DNA of 64,000 bases from Thermoanaerobaculia bacterium (GTDB lineage Bacteria > Acidobacteriota > Thermoanaerobaculia > Multivoradales > J023): the NCBI GenBank assembly GCA_030431255.1, contig JAUIJL010000002.1:310001-374000 (forward strand), given 5' to 3'. A program made the translations under genes and the position numbers. Below the pieces are notes generated by a model. It was not told where the DNA came from. It made no database searches and saw only the letters and a list, made by a program, of their open reading frames with translations. Below are positions 59,420-64,000 of the stretch, piece after piece. Positions within the stretch are counted from its first letter, which is position 1, and each line of letters starts with the position of its first letter.

Positions 59420-61951
59420 TCAACCCGCAGCTGCGTGCTGATGGTTTTCGGTCTTTACGTCGTCAAGCAAGTCAAATAGCGATGGCGCCTCCGCTTCCTT
59501 CGCCGCGATTTCGCAGTACCGGACCCCGTCAAAAAAATAAGGTAGTGAAAGCTCGAACCCGATCCCTCGCCGCCCGAGTTTCAGGGCTCGGTATGGCACC
59601 GTCATAAGGCCTCCGAACGGGTCTAGGATCTGCTCACCGGGCTGTGAGTACTGAGTGATCGCACGGTCGACAATGTCCAACTGCAAGGGGCAGATGTGCA
59701 TCTCCCGTGAGCGGTTGGCTTGGCTGGTATTCAGCGTCAGCATCCGGGTAACATCGGACCACACCTCATCCGACCAGCTCGGAGGCTGTAGAAGCATGAA
59801 GGAAGTTGGCAGAACGCCCCGCGCCTCGAGCCTTTCGCCTAGCCGAACATGCGCCTCATAGTCGTAGACCTCCGACAAGAAGTGCTCTTTGAACGCTCGA
59901 AATATCGGAGCATGCTCCAAACCTTCCATCTCTTCCAGCGAAACCAACCGGTCACCGGAAGACCTCGCGAAACCGTGTGCGTCGGTCTGCCACCTAGCCC
60001 GTGAATAATGCCCTTTGTCTTTGATCACGGGCTCATCCGCGTAGCCGTTCGATGGATCCGACGGTGGCTTACGGAGAACCAATAGATACTCAGGCATGCC
60101 TACGCCCATCTTGGATCCGTCTTTACACTGTTCGGTCCAACCGAGTCTGTAGGTCTGATTGTTTTCCCGCACCACGTCCGTGACGATCGTTTTCATTCCA
60201 AGGAATGCAAAACCGTGCCCTTGGAAGTGATTAATACACTCCGCATGAAAGGGATAGACGGTCTGAAAACCCAACTTGTTGATACCGCCGGGAACGATCC
60301 GATCCTTCACGTGGATAGCGGCGATCCGCCCCGGCTTGAGTGATCGAAACAGCTCGGGCGTCAAGTAATCCATTTGGGCAAAAAACTCTTCCGGTCCGGA
60401 GCTGTGCCCAAAGTCCGCGACATGGTCGGAATACTTGTATTGATTGCCGAAGGGAGGCGACGTCAGAATCATGTCGATCGAGTCATCTGCGAGCCTCGCC
60501 GCCTCCTCTACGCAGTCGTTGCGGACGAGCCTAAAACCCTCTCCCTCCACCTCAATCCGCTCCCCTACATCCACCGAGGCGACCACCTCACGGGCCATCG
60601 ACTCTGCGGAAAGGCCTTGCTCTCGGATGATTTCCGCCATTTTTCTGGTCAGCTCCCGGTGTTGATCCCATTTCCGCACTAAGGCATCGCGAACGCCCCG
60701 CTCTGCCTCGGTATAGATCAGGTCGATCCGAACCGGCCGGGTCTGCTGAAAACGTTGCAATCGGTGGACGGCTTGAATGAAATCGTTGAATTTGTAACCG
60801 AGCCCCAAAAACACGGCCCGATGGCAGAAGCGCTGAAAGTTGCAGCCCGAACCCGCGATTACTGGCTTTGTTGCCAGGATTCGAAACTTACCTTCGGAGA
60901 AGTCGGCGATGCGGCGCTCTCGATCTTCGAGCTCCTGGGTTCCGTAGACGTCCACTGCCTCGGGAATTGCATCGACGATCGCGCGCCGTTCGTCTTCCAG
61001 GTCGTGCCAGATGATGAAATGGGCCTCGGGATCCTCGTCCACTAGTTCGGCCGCCTTGGTGACGCGAATAGCCATCGAGCGGCGCTTCTCTCGAGCTGCG
61101 TCTACCACGCCCAACGAGGCATTAGGCACTAGCCGGAGCTGTCCATCCCGTTCTTGGCCGGCATCCGCGTAGTCGCTCGGCAGCTCGTGCCATCGAATAT
61201 CGAGCGGCGGTAGGTCATATCCTTCATCCGAAAAGCCGAGGTCCGAGGGTTTTTGCAAAAAAACCGACCATCCCGACATCCAGGCCCAGAAATCCGCTTC
61301 CTTGTGAGCATGGAGCGTCAGCGCGTCGGCCCGGGTGCTGTCTCGCTGAAAGAATCGCGTCTTTGCGTCGCCAACCGACATCACACCCAGGTACGCAGCG
61401 TAAGCCAGTAGCTCCGTGAATTCGTTGGGCGATGGAGTCGCCGTGGCCACGAATCGATATCGGACGTCTTCAAAAGCTCGCATGAATTCTCGAAAGGTTT
61501 TTGACCCGCCCATCCCACGCAACACAGAGGCCTCGTCGAGCGACGTCACAGCGAATCGGCTAGGATTGATCTTCCCCTCTCTGACCGACTCATAGTTGGT
61601 GAGATAGATTCCCGGTCCTTCGAGCTCGGCCGAGGAGCGGATAAACTGGAGCGGCGTGCCCATGGCCTTTGCATCGCGAAGAAATTCCCCCCGAACCCCC
61701 AGGGGCGCCACAATCAGCCCTGCCTCTCCTACCTCCGCCGTGATGCTTCTAAGGATCTCCAGCTGCATGTAGGTCTTTCCCAAGCCAAACGCCGCAAAGA
61801 TCGCCCTGCGACCTCCACGGATCGCCCATTCAACGATCGCCCGTTGGTGCGGAAGTAGGCTCGGATGCAAAGAGCCCGGCTCGATCGCCAAACCCCGGTC
61901 AGGGCTGGTCGCGATCTTTGAGCGAAGGAATTCTGAATACAGAGTCTTCAT
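59420..61951 (-). CDS. SF2 helicase fused to a DNA methyltransferase
   Basis: The 843-residue product joins two enzymes. Residues about 1-440 form an SNF2/DEAD-like helicase with AAFGLGKTYM (Lys59), TSLDEASVL, and the conserved QAVHRLQRFQQTRPV motif VI. Residues about 470-820 form an N4/N6-type amino methyltransferase with motif IV TSPPF (497-501) before motif I DPFGG (777-781), the beta-class order. Similar fusions occur in phages and some plasmids. It could methylate phage DNA against restriction while moving on it. The start overlaps the PP-loop gene stop (ATGA). Confidence 0.88.
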   Translation of the reverse strand: MKTLYSEFLRSKIATSPDRGLAIEPGSLHPSLLPHQRAIVEWAIRGGRRAIFAAFGLGKTYMQLEILRSITAEVGEAGLIVAPLGVRGEFLRDAKAMGTPLQFIRSSAELEGPGIYLTNYESVREGKINPSRFAVTSLDEASVLRGMGGSKTFREFMRAFEDVRYRFVATATPSPNEFTELLAYAAYLGVMSVGDAKTRFFQRDSTRADALTLHAHKEADFWAWMSGWSVFLQKPSDLGFSDEGYDLPPLDIRWHELPSDYADAGQERDGQLRLVPNASLGVVDAAREKRRSMAIRVTKAAELVDEDPEAHFIIWHDLEDERRAIVDAIPEAVDVYGTQELEDRERRIADFSEGKFRILATKPVIAGSGCNFQRFCHRAVFLGLGYKFNDFIQAVHRLQRFQQTRPVRIDLIYTEAERGVRDALVRKWDQHRELTRKMAEIIREQGLSAESMAREVVASVDVGERIEVEGEGFRLVRNDCVEEAARLADDSIDMILTSPPFGNQYKYSDHVADFGHSSGPEEFFAQMDYLTPELFRSLKPGRIAAIHVKDRIVPGGINKLGFQTVYPFHAECINHFQGHGFAFLGMKTIVTDVVRENNQTYRLGWTEQCKDGSKMGVGMPEYLLVLRKPPSDPSNGYADEPVIKDKGHYSRARWQTDAHGFARSSGDRLVSLEEMEGLEHAPIFRAFKEHFLSEVYDYEAHVRLGERLEARGVLPTSFMLLQPPSWSDEVWSDVTRMLTLNTSQANRSREMHICPLQLDIVDRAITQYSQPGEQILDPFGGLMTVPYRALKLGRRGIGFELSLPYFFDGVRYCEIAAKEAEAPSLFDLLDDVKTENHQHAAAG

Positions 61952-62274
61952 GCTGGGCCCGGCGATTGTTGAGCCGATAGCCTGCGAGAGACACAGCTTG
62001 TGCAGAGAGGGGGCCGCTCGTGAGGTACCACTGAGCGACGGCGACGGCTCGATTCCAAGACTCTCCGCCCGCTTACCAGAACGGTTCGCTCAGGATGGGG
62101 GATATATCTCTTCACGAAGAAGCGCAACGGACGCGGATGACGCGCAGCAATCGCCGTAGCTGCGAGGGAGTCATGCCCTCCGCTGAACATGGAGTAAACG
62201 CTACGCACTGGATACCGAGTCGAGCTGTGAGTCGCAATCGCGGAATCGATCACCGCCAGAGAGTCAGAAATCAT
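61948..62274 (-). CDS. Truncated PP-loop (PAPS-reductase-like) protein
   Basis: The 108-residue product has the PP-loop motif YSMFSGGHDSLAATAIA, as in PAPS reductases and DndC-like sulfur enzymes, then jumps to RTVLVSGRRVLESSRR, which resembles a much later part of the family. The region between, about 80-150 residues, is missing, and the end is basic and unlike the family. The total gap to the next gene is too small for a full enzyme, so an internal deletion is likely. AGAGG precedes the ATG. Confidence 0.6.
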   Translation of the reverse strand: MISDSLAVIDSAIATHSSTRYPVRSVYSMFSGGHDSLAATAIAARHPRPLRFFVKRYIPHPERTVLVSGRRVLESSRRRRSVVPHERPPLCTSCVSRRLSAQQSPGPA

Positions 62275-63361
62275 TTTCACACCTCTCTGGAGCCGAGACC
62301 TTCGATGAGCGATCGATAGGCAAGGGCTGCCTGTTCGGGCAGGACTCCGTTTCCGGCGAGTCGTAGCAGAGCCACCCGGCCCACGGAGCCCACCCCATCA
62401 GCCAAAAGACGAAGAGCGGATTTAACAGCTTTTGGGGAGACTCCGGGGGCGAGGTGCTGGAATCGTCGGTCGCGGAGGATGTGGGCCCAGGCTGCGGAGT
62501 CGTTGGGTCCTGGTGGGTAGAGACTGGGAAAAGCAGGGCCGCATCCGTGAGAGTGGTCCCCGGATTGCTCTTCCATTCTGCCGTCGCCGCGGTCGACCTT
62601 CGGCTCCCTCTTGCATCCGTCGCTGTTGGAGTCGGCCATTGCTGCGCGGCTCCTGTCAGGGTCAGATTGCCTCGTTTGAAGCTGCCCCCCCCACTCGCAT
62701 CGCTCGCCAACGGCGTGGGCCACCTTCGCGCCCAGGTCTCGAGGCTCGGCGTTCCGCGGCTCGGCCGGTCGTGCGGAACCGTTCCCTCGTTCTGCGAGGA
62801 GCCGTACGAGCTGGCCGTAGGCGTGGGGTAGAACTGCCACCAAGAAGAGCCGCTTGCGGAGGTGGGGAGCGCCCGTTTCGGCAGCTCGAAACACGTCCCA
62901 TTCCGCAAGGTACCCCGCTTTGGCCAAGGTGGTGGCGAGGTGTGAAAGTCCTCGAAGAGCGAGGCCTGGAACGTTTTCCAAGAAGAGCACTCCGGGTCGA
63001 ACCACAGAAACCCAGCGATCGATCGCGGGCCATAGCCATCGCGGGTCGTCGATCCCTTCTCCTTTTCCAGCCCCGGAGAAAGGCTGACAAGGGAACCCCG
63101 CCGAGAGTCCGACAAGAGCGATTTGAGAGAGCTCTCGAAGGTCTTCGAGGCCTGCGTCTGGAAGGCGCTCGACAGAGCTCCAGATCGGCGCCGGAGCCAG
63201 TCGACCCGCCTCCATCTGCGCCGCCAAGTACTGACAGGCCGGAACTTCCCTCTCCACGTACAGGACCGGGCAAACATCCGCACTCGCCAACGCGAGTTGG
63301 ATTCCTGAATCGAGACCGGCTCCGCCAGTGCAGAGGCTAATGAGGGGCAGTACAGCCACAT
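62264..63361 (-). CDS. Overprinted protein in the +1 frame of the cytosine methyltransferase gene
   Basis: This open frame (365 residues from an ATG coupled to the upstream stop, TGATG) runs through almost the whole methyltransferase gene. From about 63037 to its end it matches a recognisable phage protein pattern: FLWFDPECSSWKTFQASLFE, PPPWPKRGTLRNGTCFELPK, repeated W/Y-P-T-P-x-A-S-x-A/Y boxes, and finally NPLFVFWLMGW. I recall this set from phage proteins annotated as methyltransferase-associated. The N-terminal third is Arg/Ser-rich and not family-like. Whether it starts at this ATG, or internally, or by frameshifting is unknown. Confidence 0.68.
   Translation of the reverse strand: MWLYCPSLASALAEPVSIQESNSRWRVRMFARSCTWRGKFRPVSTWRRRWRRVDWLRRRSGALSSAFQTQASKTFESSLKSLLSDSRRGSLVSLSPGLEKEKGSTTRDGYGPRSIAGFLWFDPECSSWKTFQASLFEDFHTSPPPWPKRGTLRNGTCFELPKRALPTSASGSSWWQFYPTPTASSYGSSQNEGTVPHDRPSRGTPSLETWARRWPTPLASDASGGGSFKRGNLTLTGAAQQWPTPTATDARGSRRSTAATAEWKSNPGTTLTDAALLFPVSTHQDPTTPQPGPTSSATDDSSTSPPESPQKLLNPLFVFWLMGWAPWAGWLCYDSPETESCPNRQPLPIDRSSKVSAPERCENDF
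62277..63359 (-). CDS. dcm: DNA (cytosine-5-)-methyltransferase
   Basis: The 360-residue product from GTG has motif I LISLCTGGAGLDSGIQ, the catalytic motif IV GFPCQPFSGAGKGEG (Cys91), motif VI FLENVPGL, motif VIII HLRKRLFLVA, and motifs IX-X including RLAGNGVLPEQAALAY. So it is complete and should transfer methyl to C5 of cytosine, probably protecting phage DNA. The variable region (about residues 185-300) overlaps the overprinted frame and contains the repeated PHAYG / VAHAVG / MADSNS boxes. A GTG near the upstream stop, with GGAG 10 bases away, is the likely start. An ATG 30 codons earlier lacks support. Confidence 0.85.
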   Translation of the reverse strand: MAVLPLISLCTGGAGLDSGIQLALASADVCPVLYVEREVPACQYLAAQMEAGRLAPAPIWSSVERLPDAGLEDLRELSQIALVGLSAGFPCQPFSGAGKGEGIDDPRWLWPAIDRWVSVVRPGVLFLENVPGLALRGLSHLATTLAKAGYLAEWDVFRAAETGAPHLRKRLFLVAVLPHAYGQLVRLLAERGNGSARPAEPRNAEPRDLGAKVAHAVGERCEWGGQLQTRQSDPDRSRAAMADSNSDGCKREPKVDRGDGRMEEQSGDHSHGCGPAFPSLYPPGPNDSAAWAHILRDRRFQHLAPGVSPKAVKSALRLLADGVGSVGRVALLRLAGNGVLPEQAALAYRSLIEGLGSREV

Positions 63362-64000
63362 CAAATCCGCTCCGATTTCCCGGCCAGCTTCCCGTCCTTG
63401 CGGCATCCTCGGCAAATCCCGGAGCACGGCGAAACCTCGTTGGCATCATTCACCTTGCAGTTACCGCAAACGAAACCCTCGCAGCACGGGCACTGGTGGG
63501 ACGAATCAAAGCTGTCGAATGGGCTGAAGCAACTCGAGCACATATCCGGGTAACCATTTAGGGTTCCGCCGCGAAATTTGCGCCCGGCACTCTTTTTCGA
63601 CGTGTAAGCCATTAGCCAAGCACTGCGAGGCGGCTGCCCATCGTCACCATCCCGCCAAACGTTTCCTTCTACATCGACCACTACCGGATCGGTTCCAGAC
63701 CACGCGTCGAGTGCGCCTTGAGTAGGGGCTTCACCGTAGAGAGGAGCTATAGGGGTGTAGTTGCCCCACTGCTTAAAGAAGAAGGGAATACCTAGGGTCC
63801 CGCATTCGAGCTTCAGCGTTCGAATCCAGTAAGGGTGGCCGGGACGGCATCGTTCGCGAGTGCCCGACTCAAAGCCGGCGATGACCTGATCTGGAGCAAT
63901 CGCCGCCGCTGCCTTGTCCGAAAGCACATCGAAAAGGCTAACGCTTTCGATCATAGGCTCGATGCTCATGAAGCGAGCCTGGATCGGGGTGTGCGAAAGA
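63361..64000 (-). CDS. DUF5131 (Gp37/Gp68-like) protein, C-terminal part, with zinc ribbon
   Basis: The frame continues past the window edge, so only about 213 C-terminal residues are seen. ARFMSIEPMIESVSL, VIAGFESGTRERCRPGHPYW and GIPFFFKQWGNY are hallmarks of the DUF5131 family, whose reaction is unknown though its N-terminal Cys motifs look radical-SAM-like. A Cys-rich C-terminal extension (CSSCFSPFD, CPCCEGFVCGNC, CSGICRGC) should bind two zinc ions and is not a standard part of the family. Its stop is coupled to the starts of the two overlapping frames downstream. Confidence 0.78.
   Translation of the reverse strand, partial: LSHTPIQARFMSIEPMIESVSLFDVLSDKAAAAIAPDQVIAGFESGTRERCRPGHPYWIRTLKLECGTLGIPFFFKQWGNYTPIAPLYGEAPTQGALDAWSGTDPVVVDVEGNVWRDGDDGQPPRSAWLMAYTSKKSAGRKFRGGTLNGYPDMCSSCFSPFDSFDSSHQCPCCEGFVCGNCKVNDANEVSPCSGICRGCRKDGKLAGKSERI

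Follow-up and report, generated by a model that had tools for sequence, protein, structure and literature searches.

A 64,000-nucleotide stretch of contig JAUIJL010000002.1 from a Thermoanaerobaculia bacterium (positions 310,001 to 374,000; hereafter the window) carries a prophage gene for a 5-methylcytosine (m5C) DNA methyltransferase that very probably encodes both subunits of one enzyme, read from the same DNA in two frames. Frame 0, termed alpha, would supply the S-adenosylmethionine (AdoMet)-binding catalytic domain with motifs I–VIII and X. The +1 frame, termed beta, would supply the parts that alpha lacks, namely a motif IX segment and a target-recognition part built of modules with PTP boxes (zero to five per protein, mostly one to three). 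Beta would be made as a separate polypeptide. Its probable start in a large clade is an ATG 4 nt downstream of the alpha start; in the window it may be ATG 63361, two nucleotides before the alpha GTG, and other lineages would use an internal start. Alpha and beta would then associate to form a single active enzyme. In the family, selection acts on both frames. The subunit function of beta is strongly indicated by the sequence comparisons presented here and the cassette specificity of its modules is plausible, and we infer the production of beta, its start, its binding to alpha and the methylation of DNA by the enzyme.

The two frames of the methyltransferase locus

All features given below lie on the minus strand. 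Both frames are open over positions 63361–62264, as the initial annotation of the window had described. The frame 0 open reading frame (ORF) spans 62277–63449 and encodes 390 residues, with GTG 63359 as the likely start (alpha, 62277–63359). The +1-frame ORF spans 62264–63427 with a candidate start at ATG 63361; the proposed overprinted recognition/motif-IX subunit (beta, 62264–63361) is supported by a match to phrog_1008, a beta profile and codon shuffles.

Alpha of the window matches phrog_363 (E 1.2e-37), up to residue 380 of the 390-residue ORF, and the Pfam family DNA_methylase (PF00145; E 3e-23), the latter over profile positions 14–162 of 324 only. It contains segments that we take to be motifs IV (GFPCQPFS, 63075–63098), VI (FLENVPGL, 62961–62984), VIII (ETGAPHLRKRLFLV, 62838–62879) and X (LRLAGNGVLPEQA, 62328–62366). 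The sequence pattern of motif IX was not recognizable in window alpha, which, in contrast to a single-chain m5C methyltransferase, does not hold all motifs on one chain. The AlphaFold model of alpha is confident at residues 1–193 and 341–359; the predicted local distance difference test score (pLDDT) is below 50 at residues 221–291, 299–308 and 314–326, roughly the stretch shared with the modules and motif IX of beta. The best fold match of the model is M.HhaI (1fjx_A; Z 21.8, root mean square deviation 3.1, 204 aligned residues of 327), and alpha is proposed on this basis to fold as an AdoMet-binding catalytic domain with motifs I–VIII and X.

Window beta matches phrog_1008 ("DNA methyltransferase") with an E-value of 5.4e-19 and an in-house beta profile with 6.1e-41, the window being itself one of the profile seeds (together with loci L003, L004, L007, L009, L010 and L011), so that it was retested with a profile lacking it (see below). 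No match was found in Pfam or NCBIfam. The conserved part of beta opens with FDPECSSWKT (62972–63001), followed by PPPWPKRGTLRNGTCFELP (62879–62935), which contains LRNGTCFELP. Three modules come next: module 1 (62723–62830; YPTPTASSY itself at 62830–62804), which by eye resembles the first module of locus L155, module 2 (62639–62722; WPTPLASDA at 62722–62696) and module 3 with a linker (62429–62638; WPTPTATDA at 62638–62612). The last conserved element is the motif IX-like segment LLNPLFVFWLMGWAPWAGW (62372–62428), which contains FVFWLMGW and overlaps LLADGVGSV of alpha (62408–62382). All +1 peptides quoted in the initial annotation were located in the beta translation, and the alpha boxes that it had paired with them (VLPHAYGQL, VAHAVGERC and MADSNSDG) are encoded by the same DNA as the beta boxes. 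Its statement that frame 0 keeps motifs VIII–X holds for VIII and X, and the IX-like segment sits in the +1 frame.

The end of beta is nearly invariant across the family, with the consensus NPxWVEWLMGWPxGW. Judged by position and pattern, with motif IX of M.HhaI as the reference, it is the counterpart of the m5C methyltransferase motif IX. In a motif census by sequence pattern over 280 distinct loci (two loci without a recognizable motif VIII were excluded), motif IX was found in beta in 264, the window among them, in alpha in four, in both in none and in neither in 12. Motif X showed the opposite distribution, with 264 loci having it in alpha, ten in beta, none in both and six in neither. This complementary distribution fits two parts of one enzyme. 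Nine of the 12 loci lacking the IX pattern were inspected; most have a variant in beta (e.g. EWFMGWP or EWLMRWP), and two are at contig ends. In loci L223 and L230, beta has a good motif X and the end of alpha is, by eye, a decayed X region. The phrog_1008 family also weakly matches the end of window alpha (E 0.044), likely because some of its members, such as the gene of Streptomyces phage Samy, have motif X in the beta frame.

Two variant arrangements were also observed. PTP boxes remain in the +1 frame of L002 (Gordonia phage CheeseTouch), L008 (Rhodococcus phage ReT1v-2) and L241 (a Candidatus Megaera plasmid), which represent a third arrangement. In L187, an IMG/VR contig, the IX-like segment reads in frame with alpha and no motif X was detected, which resembles the effect of a one-base gain or loss following the modules.

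Conservation of the +1 frame among relatives

Relatives were collected from several sources. In tblastn searches of phage records, the window beta retrieved 16 records, a Microcystis phage beta 284 of 50,697 and an Acinetobacter phage beta 283, and among the matches listed most are annotated as methyltransferase and some as hypothetical protein. Viral contigs searched with the window beta alone gave no relatives; profile searches did find them, at least 147 loci in IMG/VR. The profile search of GTDB genomes confirmed 456 of 551 pattern matches, of which the best 80 loci were taken. Titles of the GTDB matches include Pseudomonadota, Bacillota, Actinomycetota, Spirochaetia, Verrucomicrobiales, Planctomycetota, Geothrix, Patescibacteria and one contig binned as an archaeon. 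An alpha search with alignment A3, every member of which carries a beta, confirmed 588 loci, and the best 80 were fetched. When loci L002–L011 were read in three frames, frame 0 started as a methyltransferase and the +1 frame contained YDPxxSSWRT, WPxxGxxRNG and PTP boxes, followed in eight of the ten by an EWLMG-like segment.

Beta lies at +1 of alpha in all 336 fetched loci (in 80 of 80 of the alpha-fetched subset), with no case of a different offset or of both on one ORF. These loci were picked by similarity, and the frequency of beta among all m5C methyltransferases is not deducible from them. They are also redundant (the window recurs as L001 and L334, and several contigs were fetched by both the alpha and the beta search), and counts were therefore repeated on identity clusters and on distinct rows. 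Two loci, L252 and L253, are marked as broken or incomplete in their records; both are in the count of 336.

Synonymous codons were permuted within alpha, keeping its protein sequence and codon usage, for 330 of the 336 loci (L128, L149, L204, L243, L245 and L253 were dropped by filters; L252 was retained). Only 3 stops were observed in the +1 frame of the overlap, compared with 806.8 expected, and the control +2 frame was not depleted (2798 observed, 2553.8 expected). This is the opposite of the outcome that the initial annotation had named as refuting, homologous methyltransferase genes with a +1 frame full of stops. With one representative for each of 126 clusters at 80% identity, there were no stops against 288.6 expected, and all representatives were open against 14.5 expected to be so. 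The alpha-fetched loci likewise had none (215.8 expected for the 80 loci; 31.6 for one locus from each of their 15 clusters), nor did the 38 loci with a GC content below 0.5 (102.3 expected). The beta-profile score of the real frame exceeded that of all 100 shuffles in 329 of the 330 loci. For the window itself, the conserved 211-codon stretch (63002–62370) stayed open at +1 in 103 of 2000 shuffles; the beta profile built without the window gave the real frame 91.3 bits, compared with a maximum of 47.2 among 2000 shuffles.

Substitutions were compared in 87 disjoint close pairs, with gaps allowed since equal-length pairs were too few (21). Upstream of the ENV of alpha, the first, second and third codon positions of alpha changed at rates of.123,.064 and.301, the third-position pattern being weaker between ENV and motif VIII (.166,.090 and.250). 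Between motifs VIII and X the rates were.415,.249 and.220, and the first codon position of alpha is the third of beta. More first- than third-position changes occurred there in 71 pairs and the reverse in 14, compared with none of the 87 pairs upstream. The freely changing position in this region is thus the third position of beta, and beta is therefore the constrained reading there. From motif X on, first and third positions change about equally (.168,.075 and.183). Because the VIII–X region is constrained in the beta frame, the VAHAVG and MADSNSDG repeats of alpha are most simply by-products of the PTPxASD boxes of beta.

Between ENV and motif VIII, both frames are held by selection. In a column test (219 sequences; effective number about 102), conservation of beta reached 91–100% in W, T, P and G columns, above that from synonymous resampling of alpha, with z from 13 to 62. 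The columns of FDPECSSWKT (W 91%, T 95%, D 84%) are conserved beyond the synonymous expectation, and in the family columns of PPPWPKRGTLRNGTCFELP, P is 98% and G 100% conserved, against expected conservation indices of 0.23 and 0.27 (z 42 and 62). The initial annotation had proposed conserved overprinting and a check of per-frame constraint on homologous loci; synonymous-site constraint was found in these beta-specific columns, and stop depletion, its repetition on clusters and the codon-position rates support the proposal as well.

The window beta was found in one of seven genomes of its family, the window genome itself, and alpha relatives at E 1e-20 in two of 72 genomes of its order, including its own, so that the close-pair test is impossible for the window.

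Start of beta, module exchange and genomic setting

In 236 distinct loci, +1 stops are scarce from about 50 codons before ENV. The depletion is mild from codon −110 to −50 (99 observed, 165.7 expected) and comes mainly from one clade, termed WxG/NELAL, in which openness of the +1 frame extends to motif I (22 stops observed and 181 expected in 159 loci). The other 96 loci have 160 stops there against 218.9 expected, and in the 67 of them that contain stops beta must start internally.

Where codon 2 of alpha in the NELAL clade encodes Asn, it is AAT in 126 genes and AAC in one, compared with 481 AAT to 820 AAC in the rest of the same genes; these genes are related, with an effective number of about 25 in the aligned 137. 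AAT at codon 2 places a beta-frame ATG 4 nt after the start of alpha. The window is similar in kind: the ATG of beta (63361) and the GTG of alpha (63359) form a candidate ATGTG double start (63357–63361), which overlaps the TGA of the upstream ORF, and a GGAG 8 nt before the ATG (63370–63373) is a possible shared ribosome-binding site, judging by sequence. The suggestion of the initial annotation that both starts lie at one ribosome site hence fits one large clade and is tempered by the low conservation of the first part of beta and by the internal starts elsewhere.

A TTG located about 46 codons upstream of ENV is another candidate, as an internal start that would give a short beta. In the W-x-G-x-V-D sequence before GFPCQ, GTT encodes the Val in 139 of 153 cases, compared with 32% of the Val codons in the same genes, which gives a beta-frame TTG, and a GGAG, GAGG or AGGA stretch directly precedes the candidate TTG in 110 of 167 loci. 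The GTT bias is not decisive, because plain read-through of beta would also produce it, and AGR codons at the preceding Arg are not enriched (0.21 vs 0.32). As a separate observation, the +2 frame of the WxG/NELAL clade is enriched in stops between motif I and GFPCQ (726 against 393.7 expected by synonymous resampling; 159 loci), perhaps through selection to end slipped ribosomes.

The number of PTP boxes, counted by pattern in 283 distinct betas, is zero in 12, one in 67, two in 128, three in 63, four in 11 and five in two. Modules of recognizable types reappear across loci and in varying positions, and L198 and L205 differ by one inserted unit. Among 263 distinct loci, 130 pairs with catalytic domains at least 85% identical were initially obtained, and four with no box on one side were removed; in the remaining 126 pairs, the modules are all shared in 17, partly shared in 34 and not shared in 75. 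Since these pairs overlap, 40 disjoint pairs were counted separately, of which 10 share all modules, 10 some and 20 none. A variable part that is exchanged beside a constant catalytic domain is typical of the target-recognition domains (TRDs) of multispecific phage methyltransferases and of type I enzymes. By this analogy, the modules of beta may read the target DNA sequence, and forms with several boxes may be multispecific. We lean towards beta being an interchangeable specificity subunit, in which an array of recognition cassettes exchanged among phages is overprinted on a conserved catalytic gene, both frames staying open while the cassettes swap rapidly.

The setting is that of a prophage, with an integrase, a portal, a major head protein and a minor tail protein encoded at 40–53 kb on the same strand. 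The upstream ORF (63361–63969), the TGA of which overlaps the beta-frame ATG, matches only the end of phrog_2045 (positions 168–288 of 299), and its frame continues to the end of the window. A short ORF that begins inside the end of beta (61948–62280) has a PP-loop-like start (SGGHDSLA) and weak matches to PAPS reductases (E 0.028 and worse), and may be truncated. Downstream, 59420–61951 encodes an 843-residue protein in which helicase (phrog_16, E 3.7e-123) and DNA methyltransferase (phrog_67, E 8.7e-27) portions are joined.

Alternative explanations and known two-chain enzymes

Several observations weigh against a two-subunit enzyme with beta as its recognition and motif IX subunit. In L002, L008 and L241 an IX-like segment is in alpha together with motif X, and beta ends earlier; in L002 this segment (EWMMGLP) lies just before motif X, and the chain matches Pfam DNA_methylase over positions 1–316 of 324. 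Motif IX is thus not the defining feature of beta, and these three forms could be single-chain enzymes. A +1 stop is present in the overlap in three of the 330 shuffled loci (L043, L064 and L079), and L251 fails to beat its shuffles. The +1 openness of the window from the start of alpha to GFPCQ is not significant (P(open) 0.245), and the first part of NELAL betas shows little beta-specific conservation, with four of 79 columns above z 8. The seeds of the alpha search already carried beta, and its 80 loci form only 15 clusters at 80% identity and two at 75%. No Pfam family matches the betas, including those that carry motif X, and searches of solved structures with beta sequences gave no meaningful match. 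The AlphaFold model of beta is poor (pLDDT 61) and without a fold match, the best PDB hits not being below E 3; perhaps beta folds only together with alpha, which would explain the poor model. Finally, the predicted TRD of the two-chain enzyme M.EcoHK31I was placed in its larger subunit (PMC3404938).

Instead of a subunit, beta might be an independent protein from the same gene that regulates or antagonizes the methyltransferase, a reading that we regard as improbable. It would account for a protein under its own selection that lacks a Pfam match and was seen only on alpha in the fetched loci, and for the persistence of +1 PTP boxes in L002, L008 and L241, whose alphas already hold motifs IX and X. 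Against it, beta usually has the IX-like segment that alpha lacks, in each of the ten loci where beta carries motif X none is detected in alpha, and phrog_1008 and some phage annotations call beta part of a methyltransferase. The initial annotation had left open whether a second protein would act with or against the methyltransferase; the IX-like segment and the motif X found in beta in 10 of 280 loci favor the former.

Slightly less probable still is programmed ribosomal frameshifting, in which the ribosome would enter the +1 frame behind motif VIII and return to frame 0 ahead of motif X, yielding one canonical chain. The order of alpha I–VIII, beta modules and IX, and alpha X is indeed canonical, and the IX-like segment overlaps the alpha stretch immediately before motif X. 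Two shifts would be required, however, and the stop depletion of the +1 frame begins some 50 codons before ENV and its conservation continues through motif VIII, a region that the ribosome would pass before shifting. In split relatives, such as mycobacteriophages Alma and Vagabond, alpha stops and the records list two partly overlapping methyltransferase genes, giving beta a gene of its own.

That beta is a relic, once part of the enzyme and now a decaying trace left by a frameshift, is very unlikely. A frameshift origin is plausible, given that motifs IX and X are in canonical order across the frame change, but close pairs still diverge in a way that respects beta (e.g. 26, 5, 1 and 39, 2, 3 differences at alpha positions 1, 2 and 3), and none of the 336 fetched loci is without beta. 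The absence of any second gene is scarcely credible and is contradicted for the family: high GC lowers the frequency of stops and the upstream +1 frame of the window could be open by chance, but shuffles that keep the alpha protein and codon usage still give hundreds of expected stops and much lower beta scores, low-GC loci are also free of stops, and the changing codon position tracks beta.

A two-subunit enzyme encoded in two frames has a precedent in M.EcoHK31I (YGGCCR), whose smaller chain is reportedly read from another frame inside the larger gene, as beta is at +1 in 336 of 336 loci here. The beta ORFs described here, by contrast, can span nearly the whole alpha gene. M.AquI and M.EcoHK31I each consist of two polypeptides, and the larger one of M.EcoHK31I has motifs I–VIII and X and the smaller one only motif IX (PMC3404938), which is the motif layout observed here. 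The predicted TRD of M.EcoHK31I is in the larger chain, whereas here the VIII–X region is constrained in beta and consists of exchanged modules. M.AquI (CYCGRG) is likewise one enzyme of two polypeptides, and ten of the 280 distinct loci resemble it in having motif X in the second chain; its smaller chain has both IX and X, whereas motif X of the window is in alpha and the two frames overlap throughout. The ShiLan element is an out-of-frame HNH endonuclease in a phage methylase (PMC11855218); it shares the second frame inside a phage methylase gene but is an inserted homing endonuclease rather than a methyltransferase part.

Database entries cover both frames. The PHROGs families phrog_1008 and phrog_363, both named "DNA methyltransferase", match beta and alpha of the window, respectively, and their entries give no overprinting relation; the records of Escherichia phage K1ind1 and Paenibacillus phage Leyra each label two overlapping ORFs as DNA methyltransferase, with no mechanism given. 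In the open-licence PMC literature, apart from mentions of M.EcoHK31I, no description of a wide distribution, of module exchange or of the double start was recognized. The statement of the initial annotation that no clear description exists must therefore be qualified by the M.EcoHK31I precedent (PMC3404938) and by the K1ind1 and Leyra records. New relative to M.EcoHK31I-like two-chain enzymes is the wide distribution together with the modular overprinted subunit: the arrangement is common in phages and prophages and has one described precedent.

If the two-subunit interpretation is correct, phages and prophages of many bacterial groups contain a long same-strand overprint within genes that are usually annotated as a single methyltransferase, and the annotated "linker" of such a methyltransferase is a real coding region of the other subunit. 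This would explain the apparent absence of motif IX and of a recognition domain in these methyltransferases, and one would expect no activity from a recoded gene that preserves only the annotated frame. The loci form a large data set for the co-evolution of two frames, and the methylation specificity of phages could become predictable from the modules of beta.

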